Assembly (NCBI GenBank): GCA_017506865.1
Contig: JAFCMP010000550.1
Span: forward strand, 1-64,000
Length of the DNA stretch: 64,000 nucleotides
Source: Tribonema minus
Taxonomy: Eukaryota > Sar > Xanthophyceae > Tribonematales > Tribonemataceae
Reading direction: 5' to 3'
Position 1 is the first letter of the stretch. Every line of letters starts with the position of its first letter. Made by a program: the position numbers and the translations under genes. Positions 6,091 to 62,029 of the stretch are shown one piece after another. The notes beneath the pieces are model-generated. The model made no database searches and was not told the DNA's origin. It was given only the letters and a program-made list of their open reading frames with translations.

Positions 6091-9000
6091 ATGCACGTAA
6101 CGGATAAGAGCATCAGGGCGTGCTCCCTGTACAGGCGCAGGCCCTGGTTTTCCAGGCCCGATACGCTTCCCTTCGCAGCTTTATATCTGTGCTTGTGGTA
6201 CTATGCGCTATCCTCTGATGACACAGTAGCTGGGAAGGCGGCCTACCTCAAAGTTTTGATTGCCATCCCTCTGGTAAGTCATGAAGTCATGAAGTATGGA
6301 CCTGGTGACTTGAAATCCAGCATGTCATGCGTAGATGGTGACCCCGGCTCGTCTGTCGTCTGTCATGTGCAGGCGCTGCTGGTGCATGTCACGCTCTTCC
6401 TGAGCTGCCAGTGGTCTGTGGGCTGCAGGTGAGCTTGCACACCTGTGTTAGCCATGTGCTCGCGGTGCGCGAATTGGTAGCAATCGTAGCATTAGCGTCT
6501 CAGGCTGTCGCAAGACGTCGACGTGCTGCTCAAAGCCATGTGCACCAGCATAAATCTGGCTATGATCGAGAAATTCCGCGTAAAAACATTCTGCTCTGCA
6601 GCTCGCTCGTGGGCACGTGTGGTATCCACACACGAGCGGTGCATTTTCGCAGCTGCGCAACGGTCGCGTCGTGACTTGCTGCAAGTACTGAGCGATGGCA
6701 GCAAATATTCATAGCAGCAATTCTTGCAGAAGCATCGCCATAAGGTTGTGGCGAATTTTGATCCATGACTTGATCATGGCATATTTTATGGCGCCAAATC
6801 AACCGCTGTCACGACGCAACCACGCCTGAAACATGCGCAGGGATTGCCGGAACAACATTTGTACTCCATTCCAAAGCCTGCATTCATTGGGTATGCCTGC
6901 TGAGGGCGCTGCTGTCCGCAAACAACGTGGCATGTACGTGCATGTGTACACGTACGAGAATTGTTCAAACCAGGGTGCTTTTTGTGGGTGCTCAAAGCCC
7001 GCTCTCTGTCTGCCTACCGATCCCGAACAACATGCGCGCTGCTTTGCTTCCACAACTTCCAGATGCTGGGTGGGGTTTATGAGGGTGCTGTCGGTGGACG
7101 CGGCTGAGGCGGTGAGGGTCGTCCCCGCGCCGCACTGCGGAAGGGAGGAGGTGGTGCCACTGCAGGTATCGCACTGTACACGGCATACGCGTCGAATATG
7201 TCGTTGTTGCTGGAAATGTATGTATTACTTTGCGGTACTTTGAGGTGCCTTAAGAGTGCATGGCTATCACATCATATTCCAAATGATTCTGTGTGGTTTG
7301 GGGACGACGCTGTGAGCGCGATGCGCGCTGCGTGTGTGCGTACCATCGCGATGTCCTGGCGAGGTGGTGACACTGCAGGTATCACAGTTTACACGGCATG
7401 CACGTAGAATCTGTCATTGTTGCTGGAAACGTATACTTTGGCAAGGCTTCGGAGGGGCCGCAGTATTTCTGACCCATAAACAGATCAACACGGCGTCCAC
7501 GCTGCCGTGTGCAGTTTGAAGGGGAGCACTGTTGCAGGTATAGCCGCTGGGTTCTGGTGTGCTGGCACAGTCTCAGCATACGAATCCTGTGAACCTCTCG
7601 AAAGCATACACGACATAGAGTGCCATGTGCTCATAGTGTCCAGAAACACATAAAACGATTTCATGGCGAGACACCGCCTCAGGCACATCAAGTCAACATG
7701 CTGTGCATCAAGGCTAGGGTCAGGGTTGAGATTTGGGTTAGGGCCAGGGTAAGGATCTGATTTCAACCACCTGTGCATGCTCAACTCGCACGCCGATTTG
7801 CCGTCGCGTGCTGCACCCTCCACTTCCGTCGTGACCAAGGCACTGTTGTTGCGAGGCATGGAGATTGCGCTGCGAGCGTGACGCGCGCTGCATGCGTACC
7901 ATATTATGTCCTGGCGTTCTTGTGAGGCCACGCGAGTGCGCAGGCGTCGTCAAGGGCCCTAACCCTAACCCTAGCGCACCTCTCACCCGTGCGCATGCCA
8001 GCATATATACACCTGAGTCTGCGTACCTGGCACACGCGCACACGCAAACACCATCAACGGTACCTTGAAGCCCGCATGCTGAACCGCAGAGTCATGCAAA
8101 TCTACCTTTCGCGCATGAGTATACCGTAGGTGTTAGATATCCCCATGGTTGTTACGAAACCAACCTTCTCCTCCTAGTGACCCTTCTTGCTCATTTTTAA
8201 TGTTCTCATCTGACGTCGACACCCGTTGTTGCTGCAGCGCAAAGCGGCTCTGGCAGGCAACGATGGCGACATCCTGCTTGCAGGGGAGAAGTACAGGTGC
8301 ACCCCCGCTTCTCGTATCTTTTAGCCACTTGCGGAGTGTAGACTAGCGTGCGACAGTGTGACGAAAGGCTTGATGTGGCGTGCAGCTCTGTGAGTTTGTC
8401 CACTGCAAGCAGGTTGAAGTTTGCAGTTCACGTGCCAGGAGAGAGTGCTCCGCATGCACATGCTCTCGACGCCAGGTGCGAGCTCCACGTCTCGTGTAGC
8501 GTTCAAGTACAGCTGCAAATGACGACACCGTTTGCACAAAGCGAGTGTGTGTTTATCCTAAGCATTTGTCATCTCAGTGCTGGCTGTGCTGAGCCGTGCT
8601 GCATGTGGTTCCAAGTCCGGCTGCCACTCGCTGCATTACCTCAGGGAACACTGTGCGGCAAGTGACAGGAAGGTCGGAGTACAAGAAGGGTTAGGGCAAG
8701 GGTTAGGGTTATGGCTATGTAGGTCCTGCAGCGCACTGGCATGCTTCTTCGAGTTCAGCATCAGACAGCTTCAAGGGTGGTCCTAAATAATACTGTTTTG
8801 TTGTGACTTCATGCAGTACCTCTACATATTATATATAAATGTCAACTACACCAGCAATGACGCGGATATGCGGTTCAACCTTGGTTCACCTTGATGTGAT
8901 GCGCGCTCATGCACTTTCAAGTATCATGCACGAAGTTGATTGTTTGAATGTGTTCAGCGTTCAGACATTGCAGAGCCGCTCTGAACTCAAACAAGTGTAT

Positions 9001-12000
9001 TCACAACCAACTGTAGCGCAACTTGTCACTGCAAATCAATTTAGAAAAACTGATTGAGCGAAGTGAAGTTCTGAGACTTATGCTCTGTGCCTGCCACTTG
9101 TGCAGCCTGCCCACCGTGTGGTTCGACTACCAGAAGACCCTGTTCATCTATGACACTGCAAAGCCGTGCTTTGAAAGGTACGCACGCCATTCTCCATCAG
9201 GCCACTGCCGTAAAGCAATCATTACTGTACTCTAGCTTCTTCATCAAAAATCATTCTTGCTGGTTTACGCTTCCTCTTGTCGATACCACCTTGCAGAAGT
9301 GATCAGGCTGAGGGTCACCGTGACTTCACCTTGCATGTCGGGAGGGTCAGCATTAATCTAGATTAGCCGCAAACTTGGGTAAGGGGGGGGGGGGGGGGGC
9401 TGTGGCTTGCTCGCGACACGTGCTACATGTTTGTATGCTAGACGGGGTGGGGCGCCACTAATATTTGGAGAAGAAAGGGTGGGGTGCATTTGTGTTTGAG
9501 CCACTTCAGCTCATCTATCACCATCATGAGGTGCCAGCATGCTTCTATGCCGCTCCTGAAACCGGTTCATCTGTCGGAAAGCCAGCTGCTGCTGCCGGGA
9601 GCCTTTTTATGAGTTTGGCTACTTTGTGAGCTGTCTTTCTGTCTGCTCTGCACGTTGCTGATAGTGCATGCATGCGCACACATAATGTGGTGGTGTAGCA
9701 TGAGTCACTGAGTGTGCAGACTACACGTACGCAGAGGATACATGCGGCGTATGCATGTGAGAAAAAGGGGAGGGGGGGGGGGGCACATTTTTATGAGCGA
9801 AAAATAAGGGCAGAGCGACATTTTGTGAGGGCTCTGAAACTCATACTCGCCCCATGGGCTTCATTATAGACAATACATATTAAGGTAGTCATTTTTCCAG
9901 TCAAGTGTGCACTTTGAAGTATGTCCGTTGGTATGGATCGATGTCTACATGGCTGCTGATCATCGCCGTGCTTTGCTCTCGCAGGCTGCGCTACCCAACA
10001 GCGTGTCCATTTGCGGACTACGCCTGCAGCAACGCTGTCAATGTCTTGCACGTACTTGAAGTATTGCAGAGTAGTCGTACTCCAAGTCAAGTGTGCACTT
10101 TAATATCTGAATGGCTGCTGATCAGCGCTGTGCTTTGTGCCCGCAGGCTGCGCTCCCTGACAGCGTCTCCCTTTGCGGACTACGCTCGCAGCAGCGCTGT
10201 CAATATCTTTCACGTCCCTGAAGTATCGTAGAGTAGCTGTACTTCAAGTCTAGTGTGCGCTGCAACATCTGAATGGCTGCTGATCATCACCATGCTTTGT
10301 GCCCACAGGCTGCGCTACCCAACAGCGTGTCCCTTCGCGGACTACGCCCGCAGCACTGTCAATATTTTGCACGCACTCTTGGTATTGTAGAGAATAGTCA
10401 CACTGCAAGTCGAATGTGTAATTTGAAGCATGTTATCGGTGCAGACACATTGGCTGCATGGCTGGTGCTCATCATCGCCGTGCTTTGTGGCCACAGGCTG
10501 CGCTACCCGACAGCGTGCCCTTTCGCAGGTTACGCCGCAGCAGCACTGTCAATACCTTGCACGTTGTTGAAGTATTGCAGAGTAGTCATACTTCAAGTCA
10601 AGTGTGCACCTTGATGTTTGAATGGCTGCTGATAATCACCGTGCTTTGCTCTCGCAGGCTGCGCTACCCAACAGCGTGTCCCTTCGCAGACTACGCCCGC
10701 AGCGCTGGTTACGCCACCGACGCGCAACTGGCAACGGCATCCGTAAGTGCTTTACAGCGCTGTACTGTCATTACCGTCGCAAATTTGTTGTTCTTCACCA
10801 AGATTTTTTTTCTTAGAGGTTGATCAGTTCACACTACCTAAGAGCGTATGACTCACCGTTCATGTTGCAGCAGCGCTCAGCCTGTATCGAATCATGGCGC
10901 ACGTCACCACCAGAGTCTTTCTCCAGTGCTGCGCTGCATCGGCACCGGGTTGTCTTGTTTTCACAAAGATGAACAGTATTGCCATTGACACAGCAGTTTT
11001 TTTTCCTAATTTTCACATTCTCGTTCAGATCATTTCTCATCGTTACAAAAGTTGTATTATTTTTTTCAATTATTTTAAGTCTTGTCTCAACATATTTGAA
11101 ATTAGAATATTTCAAACGGCTTCTCTGCGGTACCGTCGTGTGCGTAGCACTCTGTCCCGCCAGAACTGTGGTGCATTGCACACGGCACAGTCGGCACCCA
11201 GAAAAGTACCACCGACAGAGCTTTTGCAGATGCAGAAGTCGCACGCACATACTGATTACGCCGGGGGCGCTCGGCTGGCAACGCCCTCCGCAAGTGCTGC
11301 ACGGATGCTTTATTTGACTCTTTTTAGCTCGTCAATCGTGGTGCAAATGGTATCGGGCTGTTTTGTGTCGCCAGCGCTGTGATGCATATCCAGGCGGGAC
11401 GATTGCAGTGCCTAGAGAACGAGAGCTAATTTACTACTTTGAATTCGATAGTCGAGAAGTACTCTGTTGGGAGTGGCCATTTTATGCAAATGACTCTTGT
11501 TGGAAGCTTCACAGAGAGAGATTGATTCCACAGACAAAGAGTGCGAAGCACTCTTTCTCGCCCCCCTTCTACCTGAAAGTAATTTCTCCCTTGGCTGATG
11601 CCGTGTGGTGCTGGAATGTAGAACTGGATGGCAATGCGGGTGGAGAACCAGCGGAAAGCGTGCCATCTGCTCCTAGAGCGCTTCAACCGTGCCTGCACAA
11701 CGCAGCAGCAGGCGGCGGCGACTGCTCTGAACCTGCTGCGATGCACGCCTCACCGTGCCTGCACAACGCAGCAGCAGGCGGCGGCGACTGCTCTGAACCT
11801 GCTGCGATGCACTTCTCACCAAATCGAGGGACGGAACGAGAACCTCACCAGTCTGCTGTGCAAATATGGTGCCGCAGTCGGTGCGCGGTGCCGGGTATGG
11901 CAACGGCTTGCAGTCGAGCACAGCTGCGCGGAGCACGCAGTGCGTGTCCTGAACTACGCAGACGGGGAAGTGGCACTGCGGCTGCTCTCGGAGGTCATGG

Positions 12001-15000
12001 CGAGGGCGCTTGAGATGTACAAATGGGACGCGGCCATGTTGTGGCAGGAAGCAAACCGGCTTCCCTTATCGGCCTGCTCCGGCTTGCTTCGGTGCACGCA
12101 CACATTTCAAACCAAACTGCCCCCCCCTTGATTCCTAGCCAGAGCAAGCTTTGTATTCTCATGATCTGACACCAAACCTTACCTGCCACAATATGGCCAC
12201 GTGCCATTTATACACCTCAATCGCCCTTGCCGTGGCCTCCGGGAGCAGACGCAGTGCCACCTCCCCGCCTCGCTTGCCCAAAACGCGCACTGCGTGCTCC
12301 GCGCAGCTGCGCTCCACCGCCAGCCTTTGCCCCACGCTGCGCACCCACTGCAGCATCAAACTCGCGCAGCAGACTACAGCAGTGAGGTATTCCTTGCGAT
12401 GTTCGACTTGGTGAGGAGTGCGCCTCAGCAGAATCAGAGCAGCCGCCGCCGCCATCTGCTGCGTTGCGCAGGCACGGTTGAAGCGCGCCAGGACGCGTTC
12501 CGCTGGTTCTCCATCTGCGGGATGGAGTATGAGGGGTCATTTTAATCTTAGCTGAATTCTTCGCTGCATTTTCGAGGGAGTGGCGACTGAGCGCTGGGTT
12601 TTTGAGGGCGTGGCGAGTGAGCACTTATTCACGCTCAGAAAGTTTGAGTAAACCACGAGTAATCCACTCGTTTTTCCTCACTCTACTACTCTACTCTAGC
12701 AACTCTTTTGCAGCGTACTCGTCCCGTCAGCGGATGCATCCAACGTTCGGCACCCAGTTCCGCTTCAGGGCGGAGAGGTCTAGCTGCAGAACTGGCGCTC
12801 TCAGTCCCTCCTGTGGCCACCAAACGTGGTGATCCTCAGCCGCCTCTCAAATCTGCCATAGCACTATTTTAGATTATCGACACTATTATTATCTCAAGCA
12901 GTAGTCACGAGTTCTAAGATGGCTGCATCCCTTTTAGCTTGATGCAAATGTGCGTTCCTGAAGTTGACACGGGTCCCAGAAGCGCAGAAAACAATTGGTA
13001 CACTCTGAAGGTACCCGAGACAAACTGAGTTAAATGTGAACCGCTACCTGCATTGTCATACTTTATTGCCATCTGCCATCAAGGTCTTTCAGCGCTGCTT
13101 TCTCACGCGCTTGCGCCGGGTGTTGCCTGTGGCTGCAACAAACGCAACACCTTTTGAATGACCTCATGAATGATTTAAATGCGGAAACAGATGCTTCTGC
13201 ATCCTTCACCAGAAAAGAACTTTTGATAAATGCCATGCAGCGACTGGCGGCCTCCTGCCCCCCAATATCAATATTTTAGTAATGTTTTCTTCTTTGCAGT
13301 GACTCACCTTCGGCTCTGCCCCGCTGCTCGCTGTTTGAAACAGGAGCGATGGGGCCTGAACGTTCTCGACCTTCCGTCGCCGACGTTCGGGGAGCTGTTC
13401 CACGAGCACGTCACGGCGCCCTTCTTTGCATTCCAGGCGAGTGCTTGACAGTTATGCAGCGCGAGACCCTGGTGCGCTCTGCGTCAGTCCACACCTGAGA
13501 ACACGTCATTGAGCGTTTGAAGCAAGTACTTTTGGGAGCATTGCCAGCACATGTGGAGTGTGAGTGATATGACATGAGTTACATCAAGGAGTATGCAAGT
13601 GAATGCGCCATCAGCGGTGTTTCACAATGCCAACAGTGGCCTGTATGCCAACACTGGCTGGCGCGTCCCTAACCCCAACTCTGCTGCTGACCTCACTTTG
13701 GCGCTGAGCAAATATGACAGCTTGTTTGCATTCCGGCCCTTGGTGCAGTGATACCCACCCATCATTTTGACTTCCACAGGCTGTGGTTTGACTTGCCTGT
13801 TGACGCCAGCATACTGAGCAGGGCGTTGTCCCCACTGGCTTTCAGCAACTGAGCTGTTCATACTCACGTTCTCATGCAACAGGCAGCTGTTGCCGCTCAT
13901 TGTATTTTTATTGCCTTCACTTGTGCACACATGTAATCTCAACGGCGGTGCAACTGTGATGTGCATGCTGCAGGTGCTTTGCGTGATACTGTGGAGCTTG
14001 GACGAGTACTGGTACTACAGGTAAGCGAGTTGAGGTACTGTGGCGATATCATATTTCATTCACGTACCGAACGTAATTCCGTATCCCTCTGCTGGGCACT
14101 TGCAGTGCGGCGGCACGCCCCCTGTGCTGGGGGCCTGCACGCTTAGGGTTAAGGTAAGCATTAGAGTTAGGGCTAGGGTAAAGCTAGGGTTAGAGTTAGG
14201 GTTAGGGCAGCACAGTTGGTTCTGGAGGCCTGCACGCGACAGCGGCAAGTCACATTACTTTCAGATGCCACGGAGATTCTTGTTCAACAACAACAACAGT
14301 GGTGGTGATGCATCGTGCTCCGGCAGTGCTGCGCAGCCGTCTTTGCGTCACACCGGAACACGCGAAGTGCAAAATGACCCTTGCATGACACGGTGTGGCG
14401 CTTGGTGCCGCAAGCGCCACGACCACTGCACGATCGTGCTTCTGTCACAGCACAGAGACTGGAGAGGGCAGACTGCATCGGTCGCCTGCGTCTGTCGCGA
14501 CGGCACAGCTCCCTGCCACCGCACGACATGCCACGACTTTCTCTTGCCCGTGGCGTGCACTGCCCGCCCACATAGGCGTTGTGTGACCGGGAGGTAGCTA
14601 TAGTACCGGCGATGTGTCGTACGCGTCTTGTTGGTGGCTTCAAAATTTTCTGCGTGACCGTAATGGGAGCATCTGCTGTTGTGATATACATGATGCACTT
14701 CGAAGTATATGATGCGGGTGATGTGATGCACATAGATGTGCATGCATTGCCGTGACTGTGATGGCTGCCGCAGCGATCGCTTGCGCACAGTGATTCGCAT
14801 ACTCTGCAAAAAACTACAAAATACTCAAAAGTAGTGGTTGCATGCAAATTGTCTGTACAACTTGAAACCTGTCTGTTCAATCGCGTGGCCGCTTCATACA
14901 TATTGTGATGCTGCCCAATGCCTGCCCATACACTGCCTGCTTCACGTTAGCAAAACTGTTCCCATGACGGTGTCTTTTCTTATTCCTGCGCCTGTGCTAC

Positions 15001-18000
15001 CGCAGCCTCTTCACCCTTATCATGCTGGTGATCTTCGAGAGCACGGTGTGCTTGCAGAGGTGAGGCGACCTGTTCTCTCATCCTTTTTGCCCGAGTGAGC
15101 GCCCTTGACCCGCCGTCGGGCGAACCACTTGCTTGCCCATGAGGCAAACCACTCGCATACTTCAGCTTGGCATGTCATGCCCTCTCATTGCATCATTCAG
15201 CCAATTCAGCCAATTCTTAGTTTAATTCTTCACCACCAGACGAACACCTTGCATCGGTTCTTCATAAATATCTTTGTTGCTTGCTGTAAGACCGGGCTCC
15301 TTGAAAGTACCGGGTGCACAGCTCGCAGAGCAGATGGGAGCAGAGCAGTAGAGTAGAGGCGCAGAGCACTTGACAGGCGGATTTAGAGGCAAGCAAACAG
15401 GCAGCACTCTTGTGTGAAACGCAGCAATTGAGTCTGTGGTGGGTGTCAGGCTTTTCCTGCAACGTGAGCAAGCTTTAATTTTACCAGCCACTCAGCTAAT
15501 TCTGCTGATGCCCCTTCCATCTCGTGCAATCCCCGCCCGTGCAGGCTGAGCAACCTGGACTTCTTGCGTAGCATGCGACGGCCCGCGCACTACGTGTACG
15601 CCTACAGGTGAGCTTCAGTGCGCGCATCCATGCGACCGCGAGGCATACTTGAGCAATCGAAGGTCTTAGACTATAGGGTTTCACAGACTTCAGTATCTCT
15701 GTCCTGTATCAGTATCACTGATGCCAACAATGCCAGTAATTGATGGAGCGGCAGAGTATGGCGATGCTAGAAGTACACCCGCAGGCGAGTTGAAGTACAC
15801 CCGCAGGCGAGCTGATGATGCGCGCATCTACACGACCGACTGCAAGGCAGCCTGACTCGCTCAACGTGTACTGTTGTGTTCTGATGTGCACTACGTGTAC
15901 CGTTGCGTACTGCTGTGCACTGTCGCCCACGTTTCCACCCCACGAGTGGTGCGTCAAGCGCCAATGGGCTATGATTAGGGTTAGGCTTCTGTTGGGTTCA
16001 GGGTTTGAATGAAGGTTAGGGTCTGGCCCTGAAGTTGAAGTTGATGAACAGCTCAGGGGCGGCGCCACCGGTTGCACGCTGGATCTCCAGTACGAAACCG
16101 TTGCAGCCTAGGAGCTTCAGTACAACCCCGTTGCGTTGTGTTTTATTGGAGCCATGGCCTTGTGGCGATGTTTGATGTGTGTGACTGCTGCGGAGAAGCG
16201 TGCGCCGTGCAGAGCTGCAATGACGCCCCGCGCAGCTGCGAGTGCGTGTGGCAGACCAATGGAGCGCTGAGCAGAGAACGCGGTACGACACCTCCGGGCC
16301 GTGTCGGTAGGCGGCTGTGCTCTTCGGTTGCTATCTTGTCTAGGCGATGCTGCAGGCCGCTTGCGGAAGCGCGTATGAGCCGTGCCACATCCGGCGTCAG
16401 CCGTAGTAGGTAGGTGCGCATTTGTCACAGCACTTGAACGTCGTTCAAGCACTGGTACTTCAAGTCTGTGTTGGCTTGATGTGTCGCACAGAGGTGGGTG
16501 ACACGCAGCGCCATCCCGCGCTTTCACGCACAGTCGCCGACACCTGCTTTTGGTCTGTTCCTGAGGCTTGTGTGTCTGCGTAAACTCGCTTTGCATCGCA
16601 GGTGGGGCGGGTGGTATAAGGTCAGCTCGGAGGAGCTGCTGCCGGGGGATCTGGTGAGATTCCATCGCTCTTATGCTAATAAATTTCAGCAAGTACTGCA
16701 GGGCGTGTGCACACCTAAAGTGCTATTTCTACTTTGCCCCCAGCACGCACACATCACTTTGGCAGTTTCAGCCCACATTCGCATGCCTGCTGCCTTGACA
16801 AAGTTCGTCAGCCCTGCTGATTTTATCCTGGGGCGTTGTCGATGCAAGCGCCACGCACGCACCTCGTCATGCCAGTGGTGACACGCCCGAATGCACACCA
16901 GCCATGTCATAAAAATTTGGTCGTGATTTGAGTATACTTGGAACTTGGAATCCTTTAAAGTGTGTATGGACTTGTATTTATAAAGGCCCAAGGGAGGCCG
17001 GGTTGCCTATGCAATCGAAAAGCTTGCGTCAACGCAGCAGCCTAGTCTGCGCTATGCCCTAGGAGCTTGAATACCGGCGCTGCAACACAGCCCAGCATTC
17101 GCGCTCCGCGTGTGTACGCCATGACGCGCTCCGCCAACTCCCGCGCCAGCGATATGCTCAGCTCAATGAGGATCTGACGCTTAGCTAACCCGGCCTTGCG
17201 TAACTTATCTGCCTTCCCCCCCCCTGAGCACAGTGCTGAGTGCATTGCCAACTCCTTAACAAAAAGGCTTGTCTGCTTGCCCAGCCGTCCGTACGACTCC
17301 TGCACGAATGGCACAAAAGCCCAAGATGACGTCAAGGTGCCGGTATGGTGCTTGACCTTCGCGTCCTCCCCCACCCCAGCAGCATAGCCGTCCGTGTTCG
17401 AGGCATTTGTTTTGCCTGTCAGGTACGAGCTCGCTGTGGGCGCGCGCACACTTGTGTCTAGCACTATTCCCTTGTTACGGTATGCACTGCTAAAGTGCAG
17501 ACACCCTGGGTCAATGACTGTGTCCGCCCGATACCCCGGTACCTTGAAGACGCCTTCAAAGTATTACTTCCTTTCTGGCGAGTACGGTTTCAATCACAGC
17601 ATGGTTAGAACATGACAATCTTCCTACGCCTAAACTTCAGCAAGACAAAGGCAAATGCTCAGCTTTCACCCGCATCCGCCGCTGCCCCGCGACGCACGCG
17701 CAGGTGAGCCTGACGTCATGAATCATGGCATATTTGAAGCATGACGGTTCTATGGATTACTCATTATCAGAACGACAAAAACTGACCTTCAAACCGCGTC
17801 CGCGATACGCGCAGGTGGGCATGACGGCGCGGCCGCTGGGCGCTGCCGCCACGAAGCAAAATATACAATTTCATCAATAAATTGCTCATTTCCAAAAGAC
17901 AAATGTAACCCTCACACACCGTGTCTGCTGCTGCCCGGCGAACGCGCGCAGGTGAGCTTGACGGCGCGACCGTTGGGCGCTGCCGCCGCGGTGCAAAATT

Positions 18001-48000: not shown

Positions 48001-51000
48001 ACGCAGACCAAGTTGTCCAAGCGGCGGCCGTCCAGCCGCATTTTCTGCATGCCGGTGAGTCCATGTATATGTACTTCAAGTGTGTACTTGGATTTGTACT
48101 TCAAAAGTATGCATATAGAAGTATAACATACACACATGCGGGGAGTCCATGTACATGTACTTCAAGTATGTACTCAATTAGCACCTCCTGTCTTTGGGCT
48201 ACCAGCTGGAGCTGGCCTACCGAACACGTGAGACCTTTCCATACTGAACACCCATGCCCCTCGAACGCTACAAAGCTCGCACACAGAAGTCTTTTGACCT
48301 GTGGATATGATGACACTGTTTGACTCGTGGCCAATGACTGCAACAGCGGCGACCACAGTTATTGGTGGAAGGCACTTGCGGCTAACCATCCTTCGTCACC
48401 TAGAGCTCTACGATCTTTTGATTCGTTTCCATGTACTTCAAGAGTATATATCCATTTATGCAGCCGCAGGTTCCTGCACACACTGAGTTAAACTTCCATG
48501 GGCTTGTTGAAGTGCAGCGGGTGGCAGTTTCGTCTGCGACTTGTGGTGTTGCAAGTTGTGCATGTGCGACTGTAGCCGCTCAGCAGGATCAGAAGACTGC
48601 ACAGGGGCGCTCTGCATGCCCTCAAATCAGACATCTCGTCTGCACCGGCCCCAAGCTTTGCCCAAAACGCCATCATGCGCAGTCGGTTGTGCCGGGACAG
48701 TCAGTAAGCTCTGCTTTGCCCTTTCATCCGCCCTGACGCATGCCTGTGTCACCTCGCGCATGCTTACGGTTTGGGTTGAGGCTAGGGTCACGATTAGGGT
48801 CAGGGTTTGGGTGAGCGTTCGGCAGCGCACCTTCAGCTTGTGGAGCGATTCCACGCTGGCGGCAAGGCGCAGTAATTGGCCGGCGCAGCCGGTTGCGTGA
48901 AAGTGCTGCGCATGACCTTGCGCCAACTTCAAGGTGCAGCACTGCTCGCCCGTTTGCGAGCGCAGCGGGCAGCGCTGCTCTGCGCGACAACACGTAACAG
49001 CGCCTCAAGTTTAAACGGCAAGATGGATTGTTTCACCACCATTGAAGTTGCATGATGGACTTCCCCGCACCGCGCGTGACAGCATTTTCACGCTTGAAGT
49101 ACAGGTGGCGACAGCATGCAGGTATTTATTCTTCTGCTGGCTTTGGCGTTGCATGCAAGAACCTACACGGGGCTAGTTATGCTGATCTTTTGATCCTGCA
49201 TTGCGGTGCGTGCTTGTGCAGATGATGGCGTCGATTGCGGCGCAGTTTGTCGTGCACCTGACCATGCTGCTGGCGCTCACTCGCAGCTGGTGAGTGCTCA
49301 CCCAATGTAGCCAGTACTCACACATGTGAAGTGAAGCATGAATTCACATGAAGAGGTGTTAGCCTGCACTGTGAACGACCTACCTTGTTCAATGGTGTTT
49401 GATGGTTTAACATCACACACAGACTGCGCGACACACGGCGGTGTGGAAGCACAGCCACGCTGGCCCCGCGTCTGCTGCCATGCTGTGCAAGTAACTGACT
49501 TCAGGGCAGCTGGTGATGCGCACCTGTCATGCGCGTGCTCATTTTATGTAATAAATTTGCTTCGAAAACGATGCACAACATGAGCAGGATTCAATCGGAT
49601 TGCTTCATGAACATGTTTTTGTTTTCAGGCCTGTATATGCCCAGCCTTCAACTCTGAAGTTTTCTCTACCAGATTGGTCGTTCGCCCCTTCTGCTGCCGG
49701 TGACGTTTGCGTGCTTCAACCGGAAGCCCATGCCCAGCGTCTCTGCTCTTGCACCTGAAGCTCTGCTCACGGTGTTCATGTAATGCTTGGTGCATCCGTG
49801 TCCTCATTGCCGACCCGCTGACCGATCTGTGACCCTTCATCAGGCTGAGTGGCACTTTAATATCCATACCACTTTCTCTGGGGCAAGTAGGTAGAGCGTC
49901 CAGACTTCGGGCCATGTCTGCTGACCTCCTAGCAACTCTCTGCATGTAGAGCCTGACAAATGTTCTATGCGCTGGAAAGTTTGTCGTTCTGTGCGCAGGT
50001 CTTGTGATGACCCCTTTCGATGAACCCCAGACTCCAGTTCCAGGCTCCCCTTTTTTCCCATCAGGCACCAAGGCCCCTGACTACTGACTGTTTCACAGCT
50101 CGCCGATGCCCCTGTCTCTCCTCACCAGCACCAATCAAGTGTCGTGACAAGCGCGTCAACTTCAACATTGCCCGCCTCGCAGTAAAGTCTTGACGACACC
50201 GTGGGCTCGTGCGTGACTGTGCTTGTGTGTGGGTACGTGTGTATGCCTAATGCCCCTGTCACTCCCCGCCAGCACCAACCAAGTGTCGTGACAGCGCACC
50301 AACTTCAATATTGCTCGCCTCGAAGTCTTGACGACAGCATGGGCTCGTGCCTGTCCTTGCTTACAAAGACGAAGCATGACGCTGCAGGCACCCAACTTCA
50401 AGAATTTAACGTGTGTCAAGGGGTGCGCATCGCACCATACGGTGCCTGTCACCATCTGGTCAAGGCGACAAACTCGTAGGCAACGCAACTCATTTGTTTT
50501 GCTGGTGGCACGCGTATGTATGTATGCAGCGCGATGCACGTCTCGCCCGATGACCCCTCCATGGCTCCGGACGGCCCCTTCAGGCCCAACGCCTTCAACT
50601 CTGCCGTCTACCTGTTGAGCGGCATCATGCAGGCGAGCCCAGGGCCCCCATTAATTGTTTTATTTGTACTGGTGTGCAGTAGTGCAAGAGACCAGTCGCC
50701 GGTCACAGCTTGCGAAACGTGCTCCTGACCGATGGCACGGTGGGTGTGGTCTGTGCATCTTAGAAAAAACGAGGGTTTCAAAGGGTGTACTGTTTAGCCG
50801 CAGCGTAGAGTACATGTCCATGTACAGTACTCTCTCTCAAGTCTGAAAGAAAATTGGGCGCTAGCTCATCAGACTCGCTAGCAGAGATAGCATTTACTTG
50901 TGACTGTATTCATTTCGTATCAGGCCACAAGGGCACAGATGTACATGCGCACTTGCAGTAATATCGCTTCTGTACATGTATACATCATGACGTCATCTTT

Positions 51001-54262: not shown

Positions 54263-55012
54263 CTACAACTTCTGCAGCCCAAGAAAGCCCTGAGCGCGCG
54301 CTGCGCCCTCGTAGCGCACGCTGATCTCGGCGCGCGCCGGCAGCGCCAGGAAGTGAACTTCGCTGGCACTGAGAACTTCCCCCGCGCTGTGCCGATACCG
54401 CGTCGTGGCGCTTGCGTGGAGGTGCGGCGGCGACGGCAACGGCACCTGCATTCAACCAGAAACCAGCGTGTTTTTGAAGTGCTGAATATTTGCTTTGTGC
54501 ATCGGTGTCTAACCCGATTGATTGTGTGGAGCCAGGGCAAATGACGTTTGTGCGCCATCGGCGCCACAGAGTGAGCATGCTGGTGCATCGAAGTTTGCGC
54601 CTGCTGCGATGCCACGTACTAATTCCAAGGTGCAGTGTCACTGGCGCTGTCTGTAACCAGGCGCGAAATGTGTCCAACCTCTTCAATTGTGACATACTGC
54701 TTTGTCCACACATGCTGCAGCAGTTAGCGCATACTTTAACGGCTTCAAGTTGAAGTACACGCAGGCGGCCTCCCTCGTAATCCCGCCTCATGTGCAATCA
54801 CACAATTGACACAGCAGGGTGCCTCAACATGAGCACTCACTGCGACAAGACCACAACGACTGCTGCTGCTGTCTCCTGCACACAAGATACGCCCACCACT
54901 CACAGCATAAACCTCAACTTCAACATCAAAATTCAACAGGTGGTGACGCACCTCGTCCCCATCCTCGCTGCTCAGCCCCTCGCCTTCCTCGTGCATGCGC
55001 TGCGGCAGCAGC

Positions 55013-55043
<31 letters not shown>

Positions 55044-58000
55044 ACGACGCAGCAGGCTGGCGCATCGCAAAGATGGGCTCCCCATTGACGTATACGCTCG
55101 CGGTGAACGGTTGAAGCGTGAAGAAGCCTATGATGAGGCGGTAGAGGCCAGCCGGTGCGGCGACGATGCCGGGCCTGCCGCGCTCCCAGGCGAGGCTTGC
55201 GGGGGCAGTGTTCAGAGCCTGAGCAGTGCGTGCGCACAGAGTTGCGCAGGATCAGGGTTAGGGTTAGCAGCGTGTACGCACACACTTTTTTTTTCCGCTC
55301 GAGCGAGAATGAATGAGTTGCATCATCATCACAGAACAAGGAGATGCGGACACAGAAGAGGAGGCAGAGCGCATTTGCGCGTGCAGATGGACAAGAGCGC
55401 ATGTCACGGGTGACCCTCACATGACCTCCACTGCCTGAACGATGTAGGATGCCTTCAACTGACAAAAAAACACAAGTCTTGCGGACGCAGAACATCATGC
55501 CCCACCCACAGCACATGCGCAGCGTCCGCTAGGGTGTCAGTCGAGCGCGCTCGCAGCTGCCGCCATATCATGCTCATGACCAACTTCACACAAGCGGGGA
55601 GCACAGCCGGTGGAACAGACCACTGCAGGCACTTGAAGATCAGCGTTGTCATGCGGCATAGTTGAAGTTGACGCACCTGCGCCTCCCACGGCACCCACTG
55701 CCCGCGCGAAGTACACCCGCTGCGACACAGCCACAGGCCCTGAGGCAGCAGCGGCGGCGGCGGCGGCATATGCGCCATCCCCACAGACCTAGCGGGGCTC
55801 CCCCCGAGCGGGCTCGCCGCTGCCGCCGCCGCCGCCGCTGCCGCCGCGGCGCTGGCCTTGACTTGAAGTTCATGCTGCTGCAGGGCTGTGGTGGTCGCTG
55901 TGAGGCGTGCAACGCGCGCGCTGAGGTCCTCGAGTTGCGTCGCCAGCGGCCGCACCTGAGGTATACAGCAGTAGGCATGAGCCGACATCACAAGTATCTG
56001 TTGGAATATGAGATGGTCCAATACTCAGTGCATACCCTAGGGGCAGGGCACTCACCAACGCATCACACTTCAAACCCTAGTCCTAGGTCTCACCTCCGCG
56101 CGCGCCACGTCCCGCGCGCCGCGCTCTGACACCAAGTCCCCACCGTCTGCAGCCTTGCGCAGCGCTGCTGCCGCCGCTGCCGCTGCTGCCTCACCGCCGC
56201 TGCCGCCACCACCCTTCTGCTGCTGCCGCACCGCCAGCCGCACCATCGCGGCGACCTCCGCCTGCGTCGCCTTGGCGGCGGGGTTGCCGGCGGCAGCAGC
56301 GCTCAGCGGCAGCAGCTCTTTGCGCAGCGCCGCGAGCTCTTCCGCGTCCGCCTTGCGCCGCAGCCGCTGGCCGAGCCTGGCGAAGGTAGGGGTAGATTGA
56401 CAATAGGGGCGCGCGCTTGCATTCCGTGTTTATTTGGTAACCCTAACCCTAACTCTAAATTGAGCGCCGCAGCCGCTGGCCGAGCCTGACGGGGCAGACA
56501 AGGGCGCACGCGCGCACGTCAGGGCGCGGCGGTAGGCGCTCGTATTGCTTGGTAACGTTAACCCTAACCTTGAACCTAACCCTAACCTGGGAACCCCTCC
56601 GAGGTCCACCTGGTTCCAGGGATGGAAACGTGACTCACCCCGCAACTGCGCGGCAACGCGGACAACATAGACGAGAACAGATGCGGTACTCGTTGAGATG
56701 TGGGTCCAAATACCGAGTCCGCACTGGAGAGCGCCGGGGGGGGGGGGGGGGGGTGTCTCAACCTACCTACCTACCGTACCTCCCCGTTCATCCTACTTAC
56801 ATACCTCTCCATCTCCGAGCGCAGGTCCACACGCGCGCCGCTGACGTCGGCGGACAGCTGCGTCATGGAGGCGCGCACGCGCGAGGACAGCTCCGCGAGT
56901 TCCGCAGCGCCCACGCGCGCCGCAGCATCCGCCGCCACGCGCTCAAGCGCTGCCACGTCCGCTTTCGCCTGCGCAGCGAAGGGGGGGGGGGGGGCAAGCG
57001 CTCATGCACGTTAGCGGTGAAACGCGTATGCTCGTGTGCTTTTTGAGAACAGCTCCGCGAGCTCTGCCGCGCGCACGCGCACTCACAGTGCCTGTTGCGC
57101 ATGCGTGCTCCACTGGCAAGAGAGACCCAGACAGCACAAAACAACTTCAACACTTGAAATGCTTGCAAGTACCACTAGTGCGAGCCACATTGCTGCTCTG
57201 CAAGTCCTGGCGTTCAATAAAGTTTGAAGGACTTGCAAAAACTCGCATGTCACACTGCTCAGAAAAACCTGACAGCATACCTACATACCCGCAGCGCGCG
57301 CGCCACGTCGGAGCGGGCGGCCTTCTCATTAAGCACTTCAGGCAGCTCCGCCTTGGCGGCCTCCAGTGAGCGCCCAGACAGCATAAAAACTTCAACAACT
57401 AAACTTTGAAGTGCTTGCAAGCACGTGCCACGCTGCTGCTCATTAAGATACACACCTGCAGCGCGCGCGCCACGTCGGAGCGGTACGCCTTCTTATTGAG
57501 CACCTCCACTAGCTCCGCCTTGGCGGCCTCCAGTGAGCGCCGCAGCCCGTCCGTGCAGCCCTCCCAACGCGCAAGGCTGTCGCACACCTCTGCACGCAGT
57601 GCCGCAATTGCCGCTGCTGCCGCGCCCTCCGCCTCCGTGCGCGCTGCGGCGGCGGCGGCGATGCGCACGCAGGGTCGACGTGAGGCAAAAGCGGCCGGCT
57701 GCTGTTTTTGAGACAGGTTTGCGGAGTGATCCCACGCCAAAGCTGATTTCGACAAGGGCGTCTGACGGTGCACGTGCCAGTGTGACAATGTGGACCATGA
57801 TGAGGGTACGGGGTTAGGGATAGTACGTATGACTATGACCAGCCTGCTCATACCTGAGTTCAATAGAGCATTACGAACATACTGTGCACCAGACGGCCGC
57901 CTTCAAGCACTTGAAGCTGCAATTTGGAGATACACTTGAAGAAGCACTTGAAGATTGAACACTTCAACAACAACATCAAAACGGACGCACCACACGCAGC

Positions 58001-61000
58001 CGCTGCCTCCGCGCGCCGCGCCATCTCGTCGCGCGCCGCCGCCAGCTGCGCAGGCGTCACCGCCGCTGCTGCCGCCGCCGCACTCGATTCCCTCAGAGCT
58101 TCCGCCGCCGCCGCCGCCGCCAGCATAGGCATCTCCGCACGCAGCGCCGAGGTGGAGGCGGCGGCGCGCGCGGCGGCGGCGTCCGCAGCTGCTTCGGCGC
58201 GCGCCTGCAGGAGACATATGTGGCGGTGCGTCAGTGCTGCAACGTGAAAGCACAATAGGTGTAGCGGTTGACTTTTTTCAAAAAAGACGAGTAAGGTGCA
58301 GCCACACGGCTGCCAATGGCAGCACGCGCGCGGGCCGGCAGATTTGAAGCACTTGAAGTAGCAATTGAAGTGGCAGATGGTCGCATGAGGCGGCTGCCCC
58401 ACGGCCTTAAGGACTCGCTTGAAGATGCACACGAAAACGACCAAGAATTCGTACTAGCTCTCGCGACTCACCAGCGCGGCGCTCGAAGGCGCGATGGCGG
58501 CGCCCGCCTCCGCAGCAGCGCTCAGCTGCGCGTCGAGTGCTGATGCGTCCGCCTTCTGAGCCATTTGACTGCAGCATCAGCAGCTGCTGCAGGACTGATC
58601 AACCGCCAGCCATTCAACGCCATACTAGTGGCTACTACAACAGACGGCTTGGGCGCAGGGGACCGAAACAGGCGACTCGACATTGTACGCCTTCGTCAAC
58701 GATCAGCCCGTCACCCGCAGCTGCTGTCTGAGAGCGGAAATCGCCATCAGCGCGTGCCAGACATTCGCCGACAGCACCAACCCGCGACCTCGGCACGCTG
58801 CCGGTTCCAACTTCATCGGCGCAGGCTTCGAAGACACACTTGAAGATGCACTTGAAGATACGCACACACGGAAACGACAATAATCCGCAGTAGACTAGCT
58901 CTCCCAGCTCACCAGCGCGGCGCGCAGCGGCGTGACGGCGGCGCCCAGCTCGGCAGCAGCGCTCAGCTGCGCGTCGCGCCGCAGCGCGTCGAGCGCTGAC
59001 GCGTCGGCCTTGTCCGCCAGCAGCGGCGGCAGTTCCGCCCACGCGACGCGCGCGCGCAGCGCTGCCTCCGTGTCCGCCGCGTCAGCCCTGCTCAGCAGCT
59101 GCGCCTCGACGTCGGCGAGGTCCTGGCGCGTGGCCGCCTGCATGGGGGGGTGTAGGGGGGTTTCGTGGTGTGTGGGGGGTAGGGGGCGGGGGGAAGGCAC
59201 GGCTGAGATGAGTATATGTGATGGATCTGCATGCGCGAAAGTATAGGAAGGAACAACGCAAGGTACCAGGAGGTGCTTGTACTCCTGTAGGGTAGCGGAA
59301 ATGGCGTGGCAACTCGGTGGGCACACCTGCCACTGTGCGTGTGTAGGGCGGTTTCAGGGGGGTGGGTGGGGACGTCGGGGGGCGGAGTACATGCAAGAGG
59401 TAAAGGTATTGTGCATACGGTCAAGAGGAACAAGTGTAGGTCGGTACAGGTACAACTGCGTGTGTAGGGGGGTTTCGGGGGGGGAGGGGGGGGTAGGTCT
59501 TTGTGTTCCACTTGCTGATAAATCCCAATGAGCCCCATGTCAAAATAAACGTGATAATGTGTTTACAGATGGGGGGAGCACATGCAAGACGTGTAGGTAT
59601 GGTGCATGTGGTCAAGAGATAGAAGCATGGTAAGTATAGAAAGGCCTAGGTATAGGTGCATGCGAATGTGATGCATCCAGATGCGTGAAGGCACCGTTCA
59701 GGACCAGAAAATCGCGAGGTCCCAGGAGGTGCTTGTACTCATGCAGAATGGCGTGGCAACTGGGTGGGCATATCTGCGCTGTGCGTACGGTTTTGGTGAA
59801 CGTTGACTAGCTCAGTGTGATCCATGAAGTTGGCACTGATTCACTGCAGCTGGCCCTGGCGGGAGTGCATTACAACAGTGCACCATACTAAACTGCAGAG
59901 CTTCTGCACTGCTTGGGATGGATTCATGTTCTTCAGGTACTGTATCAGAGTAACCATCGCCACCTGAGAACAAGTACCAGACCGACCCCCATGCACGCCG
60001 GTAGAATCCTTCCCTTTCACCCACTGCGCAGGCATCACTCGCGCCTGCATGCCTACGTAATCTGGGTCTTGCATTTCTGTTGCATAATGCAATGCCATCA
60101 TATGTACTCTACCTACGTATGCTCAGCTCAAGGCAAGTATGTACACAAGCACACAGCAGCTACTGCCGCACGGCTGTGGTGACATGCAAACCCTAACCCT
60201 AACCCTAAACCCTAACCGTAACCCTAACCCTAACGCGCGTGTTTCCGCGCAGACACCACATGCTTATCATACACCTGCGCGCCTCAGCTCTGGGTAAGCA
60301 CATACCCATCCGGACCCGCTTACGGAGCGCAACCCGCAGCATCCGCCCTCACCGCCTGCCACGCTACCACAAACTTCAAACACGAACTTTCAAACATCCA
60401 TGCACACGCGCACACCACACGCTCATCATCATAGCGCGCCTCGGCTCTGTTCTAGTACTCGTCCGCACCCGCTAGCGGTAGCGCGACCCGCAGCATGCGC
60501 CCTCACTGCCTGCCACGCTACTAGTGCCTACCACAAAACTTCAAGCACAAACTTTCAAACATACATGCATACCTCAGTCCTGGGTATGTACCCATCCAGG
60601 TCCGCCAGCGTGGCGCGCCCCGCGACGTCGGCCCTCACTGCATCTCACGCTACCACAAAACTTCAAATGCGAACTTTTGAACATACCTACGTACCTCAGT
60701 CCTGGGTATGTATCCGTCCAGATCCGCCAGCGTCGCGCGCCCCGCGACGTCCGCCCTCACGGCCTGCAGCGCCGCCGCCGCCTCTGCCCTCGCCGCAGCG
60801 CCAGTCGCCTCCAGCGCGCGCGCCCGCTGCTGAGCATCCGCCGCAGCCGCCGCTGCCTCCGCCGCCGCCGCCTCCGCGTCCGCTACGCGCGCCTCCGTCT
60901 GCGCCGCGATGCTGTGGCGCAGGGAGTCTGCGAGGGCGCGGTTCGCGGCGGCGGCGGCGCTGGCGTGCTTGTCCAGTTTCGCGGCCACCTGTTTCAAAGA

Positions 61001-61945
61001 GTGTGCAAGGGTCAGGTGAGGGTTAGAATTTGAGTTGTTGCAGAGGGTGTGCCAGGGGGACGGGGAGGTGGCGCAGTGGCGGTCGATGGTTGGTGTCTGC
61101 GTTTGTTGCAGCAGCGCGCGAACGGGCTTGGGCGGAGAGGGGCGCGGCTGACACACGGCGGCGCTGCCGCTGGCGATTGCAGTAAGCCATCGGCATATCG
61201 GCAAACTCCGCATAGAGTCGTGCCGAGTCGTTCATGCTTCATGCGGCATAAAGCAGCGAGTGCATGCATATGCATGCACCGAAACTGCTGAAATGCCTAG
61301 TTCTGACGAAGAGTGCTCGTGGAGATGCCATAGCTTGCGAGAATCGCACGTGTGCAAACAGTCCTGCTTGTTTGCTGATTTCATGCCCTAGCGGTAGACC
61401 TGCATCAATGACGCCACATCCAGAACTTGCAGCACCGCACTTGAGCGATTACGCATAATGCGCAGGCCACCCACCTCTGTTCTCATGGACTTGAGGGTGC
61501 GTTCCAGCGACTTGACAGTCTGGCGCGTCTCAGCCAGCGCCAACGACTGCTGCCGCATGACTTCTGCAGCAGCCTCAAAGGCGCTTCTCACAGGCGTCTG
61601 CAGCAGTATAACAATGTTGACATCAGCAGTTAGGTGCCATCAGCGGTGGCACTGTTGGCAGGAACTTTGTTTTTGGACGAACATTGCGCTCTGGTTGGGA
61701 TGGCCGTTCAGATATGCTTCTGGCGGACGTATAGGGCTGTCAGCCAGCCCTGGCTCCGAGGCTCTACTACGCATTGCGTTGCACATCACAAGTGCTCGCA
61801 GTCGGCTACGCTCTAAGGCTTGAGGGCTCACCTGTATGTTCTTCCAGCCAGCACCTGCGCCTCCATGATCACCGTCCGTAAGGCACCGTTCCAGAGCCGC
61901 CAGAGCAACATCCACGCCCATGGCTCCGACTGATACTGACCACAC
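54263..61945 (-). CDS. Ala-rich coiled-coil protein with C-terminal beta-sandwich, 11 exons
   Basis: Exons in transcript order: 61945(or 61921)-61832, 61597-61475, 60988-60695, 59137-58913, 58204-57991, 57643-57456, 56968-56805, 56376-56094, 55955-55677, 55218-54952, 54445-54263. Phases agree and the sum is 2334 nt, i.e. 777 aa plus TAG. Residues 39-550 or so are coiled-coil, with a recurring 'K-A-D-x-x-x-L-x-A-L' module (LLADKADASALDAL, VLNKKAYRSDVARAL, KADVAALERV, RRKADAEELAAL). The C-terminus has LAWERGRPGIVAAPAGLYRL then IIGFF...VYVNGEPIF, and VHFLALPARAEISVRYEG then ...QGFLGLQKL. This looks like a C1q/TNF-type jelly-roll. I do not recognise the protein by name; a cytoskeletal or basal-body role is only a guess from the coiled coil. 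The start at 61921 gives MGVDVALAALERCL and the start at 61945 adds eight residues. Confidence 0.8.
57297..57390 (-). pseudogene. Pseudo-exon: copy of exon 6 donor half
   Basis: On the minus strand, cgctcactggaggccgccaa through ggcgcgcgcgctgcg|ggtatg repeats the last part of the exon at 57643-57456. It encodes SLEAAKAELPEVLNEKAARS in place of SLEAAKAELVEVLNKKAYRS. It lacks a clean acceptor, and its donor position reads 'cgggtatg', so I consider it a non-functional downstream duplicate within the intron. Confidence 0.8.
58472..58555 (-). pseudogene. Duplicate exon with intact splice sites (possible cassette exon)
   Basis: On the minus strand, ctcag|AAGGCGGACGCATCAGCACT through GCGCTG|gtgagt is an 84-nt, phase 0, stop-free segment. 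It duplicates the 3' part of the exon at 59137-58913: KADASALDAQLSAAAEAG... versus KADASALDALRRDAQLSAAAELG. An internal deletion of about 15 nt preserves frame. It could be spliced in as 28 extra residues or be a decoy; I left it out of the main model. Confidence 0.6.
59140..59800. repeat. G-rich intronic tandem repeats
   Basis: Two levels of repetition are visible. 'gtgtaggg-ggtttcggggggg' recurs at 59153, 59340 and 59462. A longer unit, 'ccaggaggtgcttgtactc-tg-ag...atggcgtggcaactcggtgg, gcacac', recurs at 59259-59335 and 59721-59785. G-runs of 4-9 clustered over 250 bp suggest G-quadruplex-forming DNA on the non-template strand of the minus gene. Confidence 0.75.
60187..60234 (-). repeat. 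Interstitial telomere-type repeat (CCCTAA)n
   Basis: About eight CCCTAA units with two variants (ccctaaaccc, ccctaaccgtaa) lie in the intron between the third and fourth exons of the minus-strand gene. They are directly adjacent to the duplicated exon-edge array at 60283-60690. Confidence 0.92.
60283..60700 (-). repeat. Four-copy array of exon 3 donor edge (minus gene)
   Basis: The end of the 60988-60695 exon with its donor (on +: acctcagtcctgggtatgta, tccgtccagatccgccagcg) recurs at about 60571 (tacctcagtcctgggtatgt, acccatccaggtccgcc). More decayed copies lie near 60440 (cctcggctctg...actcgtccgcacccgct) and 60285 (ctcagctctgggtaag...cccatccggacccgct). Each block is separated by 'taccacaaacttcaaa-cgaac-tt-aacat'. 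The true exon is the first in transcript order. Confidence 0.85.
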
Positions 61946-62029
61946 TGTTGGTTCACCAAACTTCTCTCACAGTTTCAACTGCCAAGTTGAAGTGTTTGGA
62001 AGTTTGCTGCACGCGCTGAGAAGCTGACT
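61946..62029. promoter_or_regulatory. Compact divergent (bidirectional) promoter
   Basis: Only 84 bp separate the ATG at 61945 (minus gene) and the ATG at 62030 (SGF29-like gene), or 108 bp if the minus gene starts at 61921. The segment includes caactgccaagttgaagtgtttgg and no obvious TATA box. Any core promoter elements must lie here or inside transcribed sequence, so the two genes are likely co-regulated. Confidence 0.65.

Follow-up and report, generated by a model that had tools for sequence, protein, structure and literature searches.

The P5A gene and the copies of its exon edges

The window, a stretch of 64,000 nucleotides from a contig of the xanthophyte Tribonema minus, contains a P5A-type ATPase gene (ATP13A1/Spf1-like), which in a homology-guided spliced alignment has 50 exons and 1232 codons with no internal stops. 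A custom spliced aligner, run with a 12-homolog profile, produced the model, in which exons 11-12 were patched by hand; the closest relative is found in Chrysoparadoxa australica (55.6% identity). A second gene, on the minus strand, is known from an ab initio model only. An Rfam search of the window gave no matches, nor did a comparison of 6 kb of it with a phage collection.

An earlier, sequence-only reading had described extra copies of exon edges in the introns of the P5A gene, and local copies are indeed present at all 15 of the edges that it named (Table 1). They lie upstream of all seven named acceptors (exons 6, 12, 19, 23, 24, 29 and 31), with weak copies at exons 23 (score 85) and 31 (score 93), and downstream of all eight named donors (exons 3, 6, 12, 14, 23, 24, 39 and 42). 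The exon numbers, given there without coordinates, appear from the matching sites to follow the 50-exon numbering. Per-edge copy scores were computed on an earlier 49-exon model, where exon numbers are shifted down by one from 12 onwards; among distant comparisons, 1.7% reach a score of 80 and 0.7% a score of 90. Further copies scoring at least 85 were found at acceptors 13 and 38 and at donors 19, 44 and 33.

In the exon 6 array the unit is about 162 nt long and comprises the intron tail, the AG and at most 50 nt of exon; three copies match the real edge at 90, 83 and 85% identity, and the fourth aligns with gaps. Copies after exon 39 are spaced by 143-183 nt, with a CCCTAA tract inside the array at 43469-43513. 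The donor-type copy of exon 3 has an exon part of 18 nt and keeps its GT. Copies had also been placed at three sites of the minus-strand gene; two of these could be matched, at predicted donors, but the third was not identified. The repeat pair over donor 60695 is absent from the filtered repeat list of the ab initio run.

Table 1. Positions in the window of the P5A gene, exon-edge copies and other duplications
Feature	Position	Strand	Details
P5A-type ATPase gene	6088..52773	+	50 exons; start and stop codons not fixed; alignment to 12 homologs
Donor-type copy, exon 3 edge	7148..7434	+	7148-7221 repeated at 7361-7434; 86.5% identity
Duplication without modelled junction, intron 3	7290..7925	+	
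Acceptor-type array, exon 6 (start 10658)	9885..10707	+	five copies including real edge
Donor-type copy, exon 6 edge	10686..11298	+	copy 11232-11298, 71.6%; GT lost
Acceptor-type array, exon 12 (18334-18480)	17647..18376	+	five copies including real edge
Donor-type copy, exon 12 edge	18445..18835	+	copy 18781-18835, 74.5%; GT lost
Acceptor-type copy before exon 13 (19589)	19337..19609	+	AG lost in aligned copy
Donor-type copy, exon 14 edge	20387..20570	+	copy 20534-20570, 83.8%; GT lost
Duplication without modelled junction	21195..21515	+	
Acceptor-type copy before exon 19 (23988)	23676..24011	+	77.9%
Donor-type copy, exon 23 edge	28927..29130	+	copy 29050-29130, 90.5%; exon part 63 nt
Acceptor-type copy before exon 24 (29973)	29781..30008	+	74.4%
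Donor-type copy, exon 24 edge	30019..30390	+	copy 30262-30390, 82.2%; exon part 89 nt
Duplication without modelled junction	30157..30656	+	
Duplication without modelled junction	33496..33736	+	ends 12 nt before intron end
Acceptor-type copy before exon 29 (34501)	34052..34528	+	
Donor-type array after exon 39 (end 42943)	42923..43655	+	five copies including real edge
Donor-type array after exon 42 (end 46250)	46232..46567	+	four copies including real edge
Donor-type copy, exon 44 edge	48048..48174	+	exon part only 7 nt; GT lost
Duplication without modelled junction	50106..50362	+	
Copy over predicted donor 57456	57282..57541	-	87.1% identity; 7 nt on intron side
122-nt unit repeated over predicted donor 60695	60528..60763	-	87%; donor from ab initio model

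Geometry and divergence of the copies

Junction-spanning copies hold either an intron end with the adjoining exon edge or an exon edge with the adjoining intron start, and the homology-guided P5A model uses the outer splice sites only. The proposal that copies face the intron was borne out at all 15 named edges, but the best copy of donor 33 is found 1186 nt upstream of it, where this geometry would not place it. Truncation on the exon side was likewise seen in P5A and in PRPF8, in neither of which a whole-exon copy was found; among ab initio clusters, however, 14 of 53 cover a whole predicted exon, some of them merged by repetitive coding sequence (the clusters were not inspected singly). Decay with distance is roughly apparent at donor 39 and at donor 21 of PRPF8, but not at exons 6 and 12 or at donor 42. 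Among 72 pairs of at least 78% identity, junction-spanning or not, 8 are contiguous and 61 spaced, so that a purely tandem model would need nested events or later deletions. Short homology at the unit joins was noticed by eye, without a statistic, and is not claimed here.

Repeat arrays are a known problem in genome assembly. The P5A copies, however, differ from one another by about 10-36%, too much for a single locus multiplied during assembly, and similar repeats occur on many contigs. An assembly artefact can accordingly be given almost no credence.

The exon part of the junction-spanning alignments is 87.0% identical to its copy (1417/1628) and the intron part 76.1% (4934/6486). Divergence of the exon-derived part is thus about half that of the intron-derived part (13% versus 24%), as expected if, of each pair of exon parts, one alone can change freely. 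The splice dinucleotide, GT or AG, is kept in 33 of 42 alignments, which are not independent of one another, where about 32 would be predicted from 0.87 squared. The copies thus look like unselected fossils, with GT/AG retention as neutrality predicts. The same retained dinucleotides could be taken to indicate that the arrays are functional, as alternative splice sites, decoys or regulatory repeats under selection, and the multi-pair clusters in P5A and PRPF8 (8 of 38) all span junctions. Such a function is nevertheless highly improbable, given the halved divergence of the exon part, the retention of dinucleotides only at about the neutral rate and the lack of frame periodicity in the lags. 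A frame constraint was considered, as 15 of the 20 smallest cluster spacings in P5A are divisible by three, yet the wider set is flat and the idea was dropped; modal spacings from 26 sources show no excess of multiples of three (71/71/60).

Local duplication and its relation to splice junctions

Local direct duplication is widespread in this genome, as the sequence-only reading had supposed. Twenty arbitrarily chosen loci (192.5 kb) contain 205 direct and 22 inverted repeats less than 1 kb apart, low-complexity repeats being excluded from these lists, as from those behind the lags, divergences and cluster tests; three of the 20 lack any direct repeat within 2 kb. Within 3 kb, 31 of 32 repeats in P5A are direct and one is inverted, and all 31 direct ones lie within 1 kb. 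For 290 segments from 336.9 kb, the distance to the nearest copy peaks at 100-180 nt and drops sharply beyond 200, with 146 falling between 100 and 200 nt. When each P5A exon was compared with its own introns, the 99th percentile of non-adjacent pairs was exceeded on the upstream side in 6 of 47 cases and on the downstream side in 7 of 47, versus 1 of 94 in reverse complement.

Partial exon copies recur in other genes. In a search for the PF00118 family, 3 of 10 gene-like chains proved to contain additional partial exon copies, four in all; one end of each coincides, within 2 model positions, with that of a longer match, and the DNA at these copies shows repeated units. One more overlap (C279, 57-103 versus 24-87), of 31 positions, departs from the pattern of edge copies. 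Among 80 matches to the HSP70 family, no extra copy overlapping by at least 20 positions was seen by eye. The further claim that such arrays are the main mode of intron growth is borne out only in part: the share covered by detectable local copies is 12.5% in P5A, 20% in PRPF8 and 53-65% in four loci belonging to another P5-type ATPase gene (C160). GC-rich DNA was rejected as a cause, duplicated and other intron sequence being nearly equal in GC content (0.527 and 0.524 in P5A, 0.526 and 0.518 in PRPF8).

Introners are families of self-copying elements that spread into many genes, and they share with the present case a large-scale change in introns and the occurrence of repeats inside many of them. 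Insertion of introners or of another intron-inserting mobile element would not, however, account for junction-spanning arrays that carry their own exon-edge sequence, nor for copies that are mostly direct and close. The one array searched (717 nt) had no match in the 158 Mb genome outside itself, and is thus local rather than dispersed. This explanation is next to negligible.

Whether the duplications are centred on splice junctions, as had been proposed, depends on the level at which they are counted. At the level of clusters, in three gene sets found by homology, junctions are spanned more often than in circular shifts: in P5A (15 of 20 versus 7.45), in PRPF8 (13 of 18 versus 6.73) and in C160 exons (6 of 14 versus 2.96). 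The excess holds at all five settings, including copies of at least 75% identity, for which 13 of 29 clusters in PRPF8 and C160 together span a junction (4.6 in shifts). The four C160 exons were found by protein family and their edges taken from the ab initio predictor, and one of the loci (L008) was included because it held a copy. Circular-shift P-values are counts out of 400-2000 shifts, and clusters of at least 2500 nt were excluded from the final tests of these genes and of the ab initio loci. With exons masked, the count is 9 of 14 versus 2.5 in P5A (P 0.0001) and 8 of 13 versus 6.0 in PRPF8 (P 0.19).

At base level, by contrast, coverage at P5A acceptors (14.6%, n=48) and donors (20.8%, n=48) at score 90 is not clearly above that of the intron interior (12.2%, n=1500) or exon interior (15.3%, n=600), and the number of covered P5A junctions did not exceed that in circular shifts significantly in any of three tests (10/96 versus 10.9; 12/98 versus 11.0; 15/98 versus 11.6, P 0.17). 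The ab initio loci give a weak excess, with 16 of 33 clusters spanning junctions versus 10.3 (P 0.023) and, in a second count, 29 of 48 versus 23.6 (P 0.043), which is not significant at wider margins, lower E-value or higher identity. Training and checking of the predictor both used P5A and PRPF8, of which it recovers 81 of 98 junctions (86 predicted) and 44 of 46 (52 predicted), respectively.

It could be argued that local tandem duplication is random, junctions being hit like any other base and edge copies being merely easier to notice. The near-equal coverage of exons (12.3%) and introns (12.5%) in P5A fits this, as do the ab initio loci at margin 15 (24 of 48 versus 21.6). Against it stands the cluster-level excess in all three genes, which also exceeds a model counting only tolerated duplications (3.6 of 20 expected in P5A and 8.3 of 18 in PRPF8, versus 15 and 13 observed). 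A detection bias arising from exon constraint was small in simulation, the junction share being 18% as made and 17-18% as detected for P5A, and 40-42% and 42-44% for PRPF8. Under an assumed two-fold bias, P5A would still be significant (P 0.00004) and PRPF8 would not (P 0.26); the simulation gives no support for a bias of that size. Purely random duplication is thus regarded as unlikely. We read these results as rampant local duplication that probably hits, or survives at, exon edges more often than expected.

A proposed intron growth by duplication across junctions

The orientation, locality, geometry, neutral-like divergence and recurrence in other genes of these copies are matters of observation. 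The reading that we favour, with a probability of roughly 0.6, is that frequent local direct duplication lengthens introns whenever a single junction is spanned, the copies then being unselected and decaying. Short segments would be duplicated often; the spacing of nearest copies is 100-200 nt in half of the cases. Each event would be a tandem duplication at the DNA level, by slippage, template switching or staggered-break fill-in. Where the segment spans one splice junction and not a whole exon, the true outer site would still give the right mRNA, and the new intron tail and exon edge, or exon edge and donor, would come to lie within the intron and lengthen it. Such duplications would be tolerated, since splicing could still proceed from the correct pair of sites on the outside; only the outer sites would be spliced, and whole-exon duplications would be removed by selection. 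Under no selection, the duplicate would decay while the real exon edge stays fixed. A raised chance of one break just inside an exon, which is purely conjectural, would explain the excess of junction-spanning clusters.

A more far-reaching reading is tentative and rather doubtful: exon-intron boundaries would be hotspots for duplications of 100-200 nt, roughly the size of a nucleosome or an Okazaki fragment, and with time most of this lineage's intron sequence would have become stacked, decayed boundary copies. This would make it a mode of intron growth separate both from transposons and from intron birth.

Some elements of the favoured reading have precedents. In the potato RdRp gene a tandem duplication across an intron-exon boundary is described (PMC4974935); like the units of the acceptor-type arrays, the duplicated segment joins the 3' part of an intron to the 5' part of the exon that follows. 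There, however, duplication gave rise to a new exon and a new intron, whereas the copies here remain inside a single intron, at many junctions and in some cases as multi-copy arrays. In the tandem genomic duplication model of intron gain, as set out in the review PMC3443670, an exonic AGGT segment is needed and a new intron results; tandem duplication with re-used splice signals is common to both. Intron birth by this route is suggested in P5A by intron 1 (99 nt), whose donor and acceptor surroundings score 105, above the 99th percentile of mismatched pairs (81). The signature is confined to that intron, 1 of 48 in the 49-exon model, the other 47 lying below the 95th percentile (62; next best 60), and hardly any credence can be given to it as a general explanation.

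Novel intron positions in Drosophila are attributed, in PMC2891723, to sliding or tandem duplication in a few cases. Local duplication of coding sequence is again the source of change, but the outcome is moved or gained introns and not stacked exon-edge copies. Fill-in at induced breaks in mouse and human cells makes small tandem duplications (PMC8355091); such short, local direct duplications from repair offer a possible mechanism here, although the breaks were induced and the passages concerned draw no link to splice junctions. Direct repeats of 4-30 bp near intron splice sites have been read as insertion footprints (PMC11782384); they resemble the present repeats in lying near intron borders but were compared between both borders of one intron. 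Duplication across splice boundaries is already known; the scale seen here is new. No paper presenting arrays of exon-edge copies as a mode of intron growth was found in the literature surveyed, which is no proof of absence.

The lengthening of introns is usually explained by transposons. Extra splice-site copies that decay as junk would form an unusually visible record of this process. Because selection holds one side in place, each duplication could be dated, sized and located, and exon-derived copies would act as a clock for duplications within one genome. Should the exon-edge bias also hold in gene models built on RNA data, a problem of breakage or replication linked to splice junctions or to exon chromatin would be indicated.

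Exon-edge copies in the two window genes

The plus-strand gene of the window, the initial 64,000 bases of contig C547 in an assembly of 158.18 Mb and 554 contigs, encodes a P5A ATPase; the closest relative found was Chrysoparadoxa australica (55.6% identity), which points to a stramenopile. A profile of 12 homologues and our own spliced aligner gave a model of 49 exons, which became 50 exons and 1232 codons with no stops after manual patching at exons 11-12. The copies of its exon edges are genuine. In direct orientation, exons resembled the introns next to them more often than they did other introns: 6 of 47 upstream comparisons and 7 of 47 downstream ones exceeded the 99th percentile, as against 1 of 94 for reverse-complement matches. 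All 15 exon edges named as copied in the sequence-only reading were recovered, two with weak scores and three through copies that no longer have the GT; of three sites named in the convergent minus-strand gene, known from an ab initio model alone, two were seen. Junction-spanning copies keep one exon edge, break off within the exon and are placed towards the intron; for one further hit, donor 33, the copy lies on the opposite side.

The surroundings of the donor and acceptor of P5A intron 1 are alike, and this intron may have been born through tandem duplication. The predicted first exon of the minus-strand gene is doubtful, overlapping a plus-strand SGF29-like frame.

Coordinates of the features discussed (window positions unless a contig is named)
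Feature	Position	Strand	Remarks
P5A ATPase gene	6088-52773	+	50 exons
P5A intron 1	6274-6372	+	99 nt
Telomere-like TTAGGG/CCCTAA tract	27620-27660		inside modelled gene
Telomere-like TTAGGG/CCCTAA tract	43469-43513		inside modelled gene
Telomere-like TTAGGG/CCCTAA tract	60188-60234		inside modelled gene
Ab initio protein, coiled-coil-like, alanine-rich	54263-64000	-	DUF4795 match sub-threshold (21.4 vs 34.8 bits)
Open frame, SGF29 tudor-like match	63516-63998	+	barely at cut-off (23.9 vs 23.8 bits); truncated by window end
PRPF8 gene	C531:381310-402161		24 exons
Second P5-type ATPase gene	C160:62367-83145		loci L003-L006, L008

Placement of copies relative to splice junctions

PRPF8, chosen blind to repeats and found through its Pfam domain, served as a second test gene; modelled on a human sequence, it has 24 exons and 2349 codons with no stops. 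The genes compared vary widely in exon density, the mean exon being ~74 nt in P5A and ~294 nt in PRPF8.

Evidence that duplication is centred on splice junctions, as had been proposed, is mixed. At base level, P5A junction windows carry a local copy at about the same rate (acceptors 14.6%, donors 20.8%; n=48 each) as intron interior (12.2%, n=1500) and exon interior (15.3%, n=600). When repeat positions were circularly shifted against the junctions, the P5A junctions covered stayed near the shift mean (10/96 vs 10.9; 12/98 vs 11.0; 15/98 vs 11.6, P 0.17). In PRPF8 more were covered than under shifts (14/42 vs 8.1, P 0.015; 13/46 vs 8.3, P 0.039), as at four predicted exons of the C160 gene (8/8 vs 4.4, P 0.011).

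Among repeat pairs, those spanning a junction numbered 22/31 against 12.3 in P5A and 17/24 against 8.9 in PRPF8, each reached in 0 of 2000 shifts; with the 49-exon P5A model the count was 17/31 against 12.2 (P 0.07). Clusters gave 15/20 vs 7.45 and 13/18 vs 6.73, respectively (0 of 1000 shifts each), and 6/14 vs 2.96 at the C160 exons (P 0.002). As P5A had been picked out in the sequence-only reading, PRPF8 and C160 weigh more, and their joint excess is kept at 10- and 15-nt margins (19/32 vs 9.0; 18/32 vs 8.4). Ab initio models gave 29/48 vs 23.6 (P 0.043), an excess gone at those margins (25/48 vs 23.1; 24/48 vs 21.6). Counting only tolerated duplications as the expectation enlarges the excess over that from shifts in P5A (3.6 expected) and reduces it in PRPF8 (8.3 expected, P 0.02), with 16/33 vs 10.3 in ab initio models (P 0.023), a set in which 14 of 53 clusters take in an entire predicted exon.

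The 28 junction-spanning clusters of P5A and PRPF8 comprise 19 on the donor and 9 on the acceptor side. In PRPF8, coverage is 42% over the final 10 nt of exons but drops to 2.7% past 80 nt, and aligned exon parts measure 21-81 nt, against a median of ~85 expected from a uniform-break simulation.

Spread across the genome

Local copies extend beyond the window, in keeping with the genome-wide process suggested from sequence alone, though unevenly. Across 20 arbitrarily chosen loci (192.5 kb), repeats less than 1 kb apart were direct in 205 cases and inverted in 22, and three of the loci had no direct repeats within 2 kb. Nearest-copy spacing peaks at 100-180 nt and drops beyond 200 nt, with 146 of 290 segments at 100-200 nt, in a 336.9-kb set that takes in the window, PRPF8 and C160 loci. 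In the second P5-type ATPase gene, local copies occupy 53-65% of four C160 loci and all eight predicted junctions of four exons.

A CCT/Cpn60 family search returned 56 matches in 10 gene-like chains. In three chains there are four additional partial copies, and each has one end in common with the longer match. The DNA of these chains shows units, at most 94% identical, that combine an intron tail with an exon edge or an exon edge with a donor. A 31-position overlap in a fourth chain (on C279) is at odds with the shared-end pattern. CCT copies overlap the longer match by 29-48 positions, thus longer exon-edge copies exist. By eye, no extra partial copies were seen among 80 HSP70 matches, and another P-type ATPase gene, whose exons are long, had no local repeats at the two loci covered.

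Apparently neutral accumulation and possible origin

In 42 alignments from P5A and PRPF8, which are not independent because one array yields several, identity to the copy was 87.0% for exon-derived and 76.1% for intron-derived parts. The resulting exon/intron divergence ratio of 0.54 is what would be expected if in the exon part the copy alone were free to change and in the intron part both sides were. GT/AG was retained in 33 of 42 alignments (neutral expectation ~32), and no frame was found in copy spacing. The copies thus behave as fossils without selection, and their accumulation is apparently neutral.

Because the copies are direct, short-range and unit-structured, they may have arisen by local DNA duplication through slippage, template switching or staggered-break fill-in. 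Of 72 pairs with at least 78% identity, 61 are separated by intervening sequence, which would require nested events or later deletions. More frequent breaks just inside exons, together with loss of whole-exon duplications, would yield the exon-edge pattern. Telomere-like tracts of at least three TTAGGG units (15 in 326.5 kb, one within the exon 39 array) are possibly a sign of break repair.

Tandem duplication across a splice boundary is of a kind already known (PMC4974935), and it is the scale and the multi-copy arrays that are new here. The genome of T. minus has undergone an unusual, genome-wide build-up of apparently neutral exon-edge copies within its introns.
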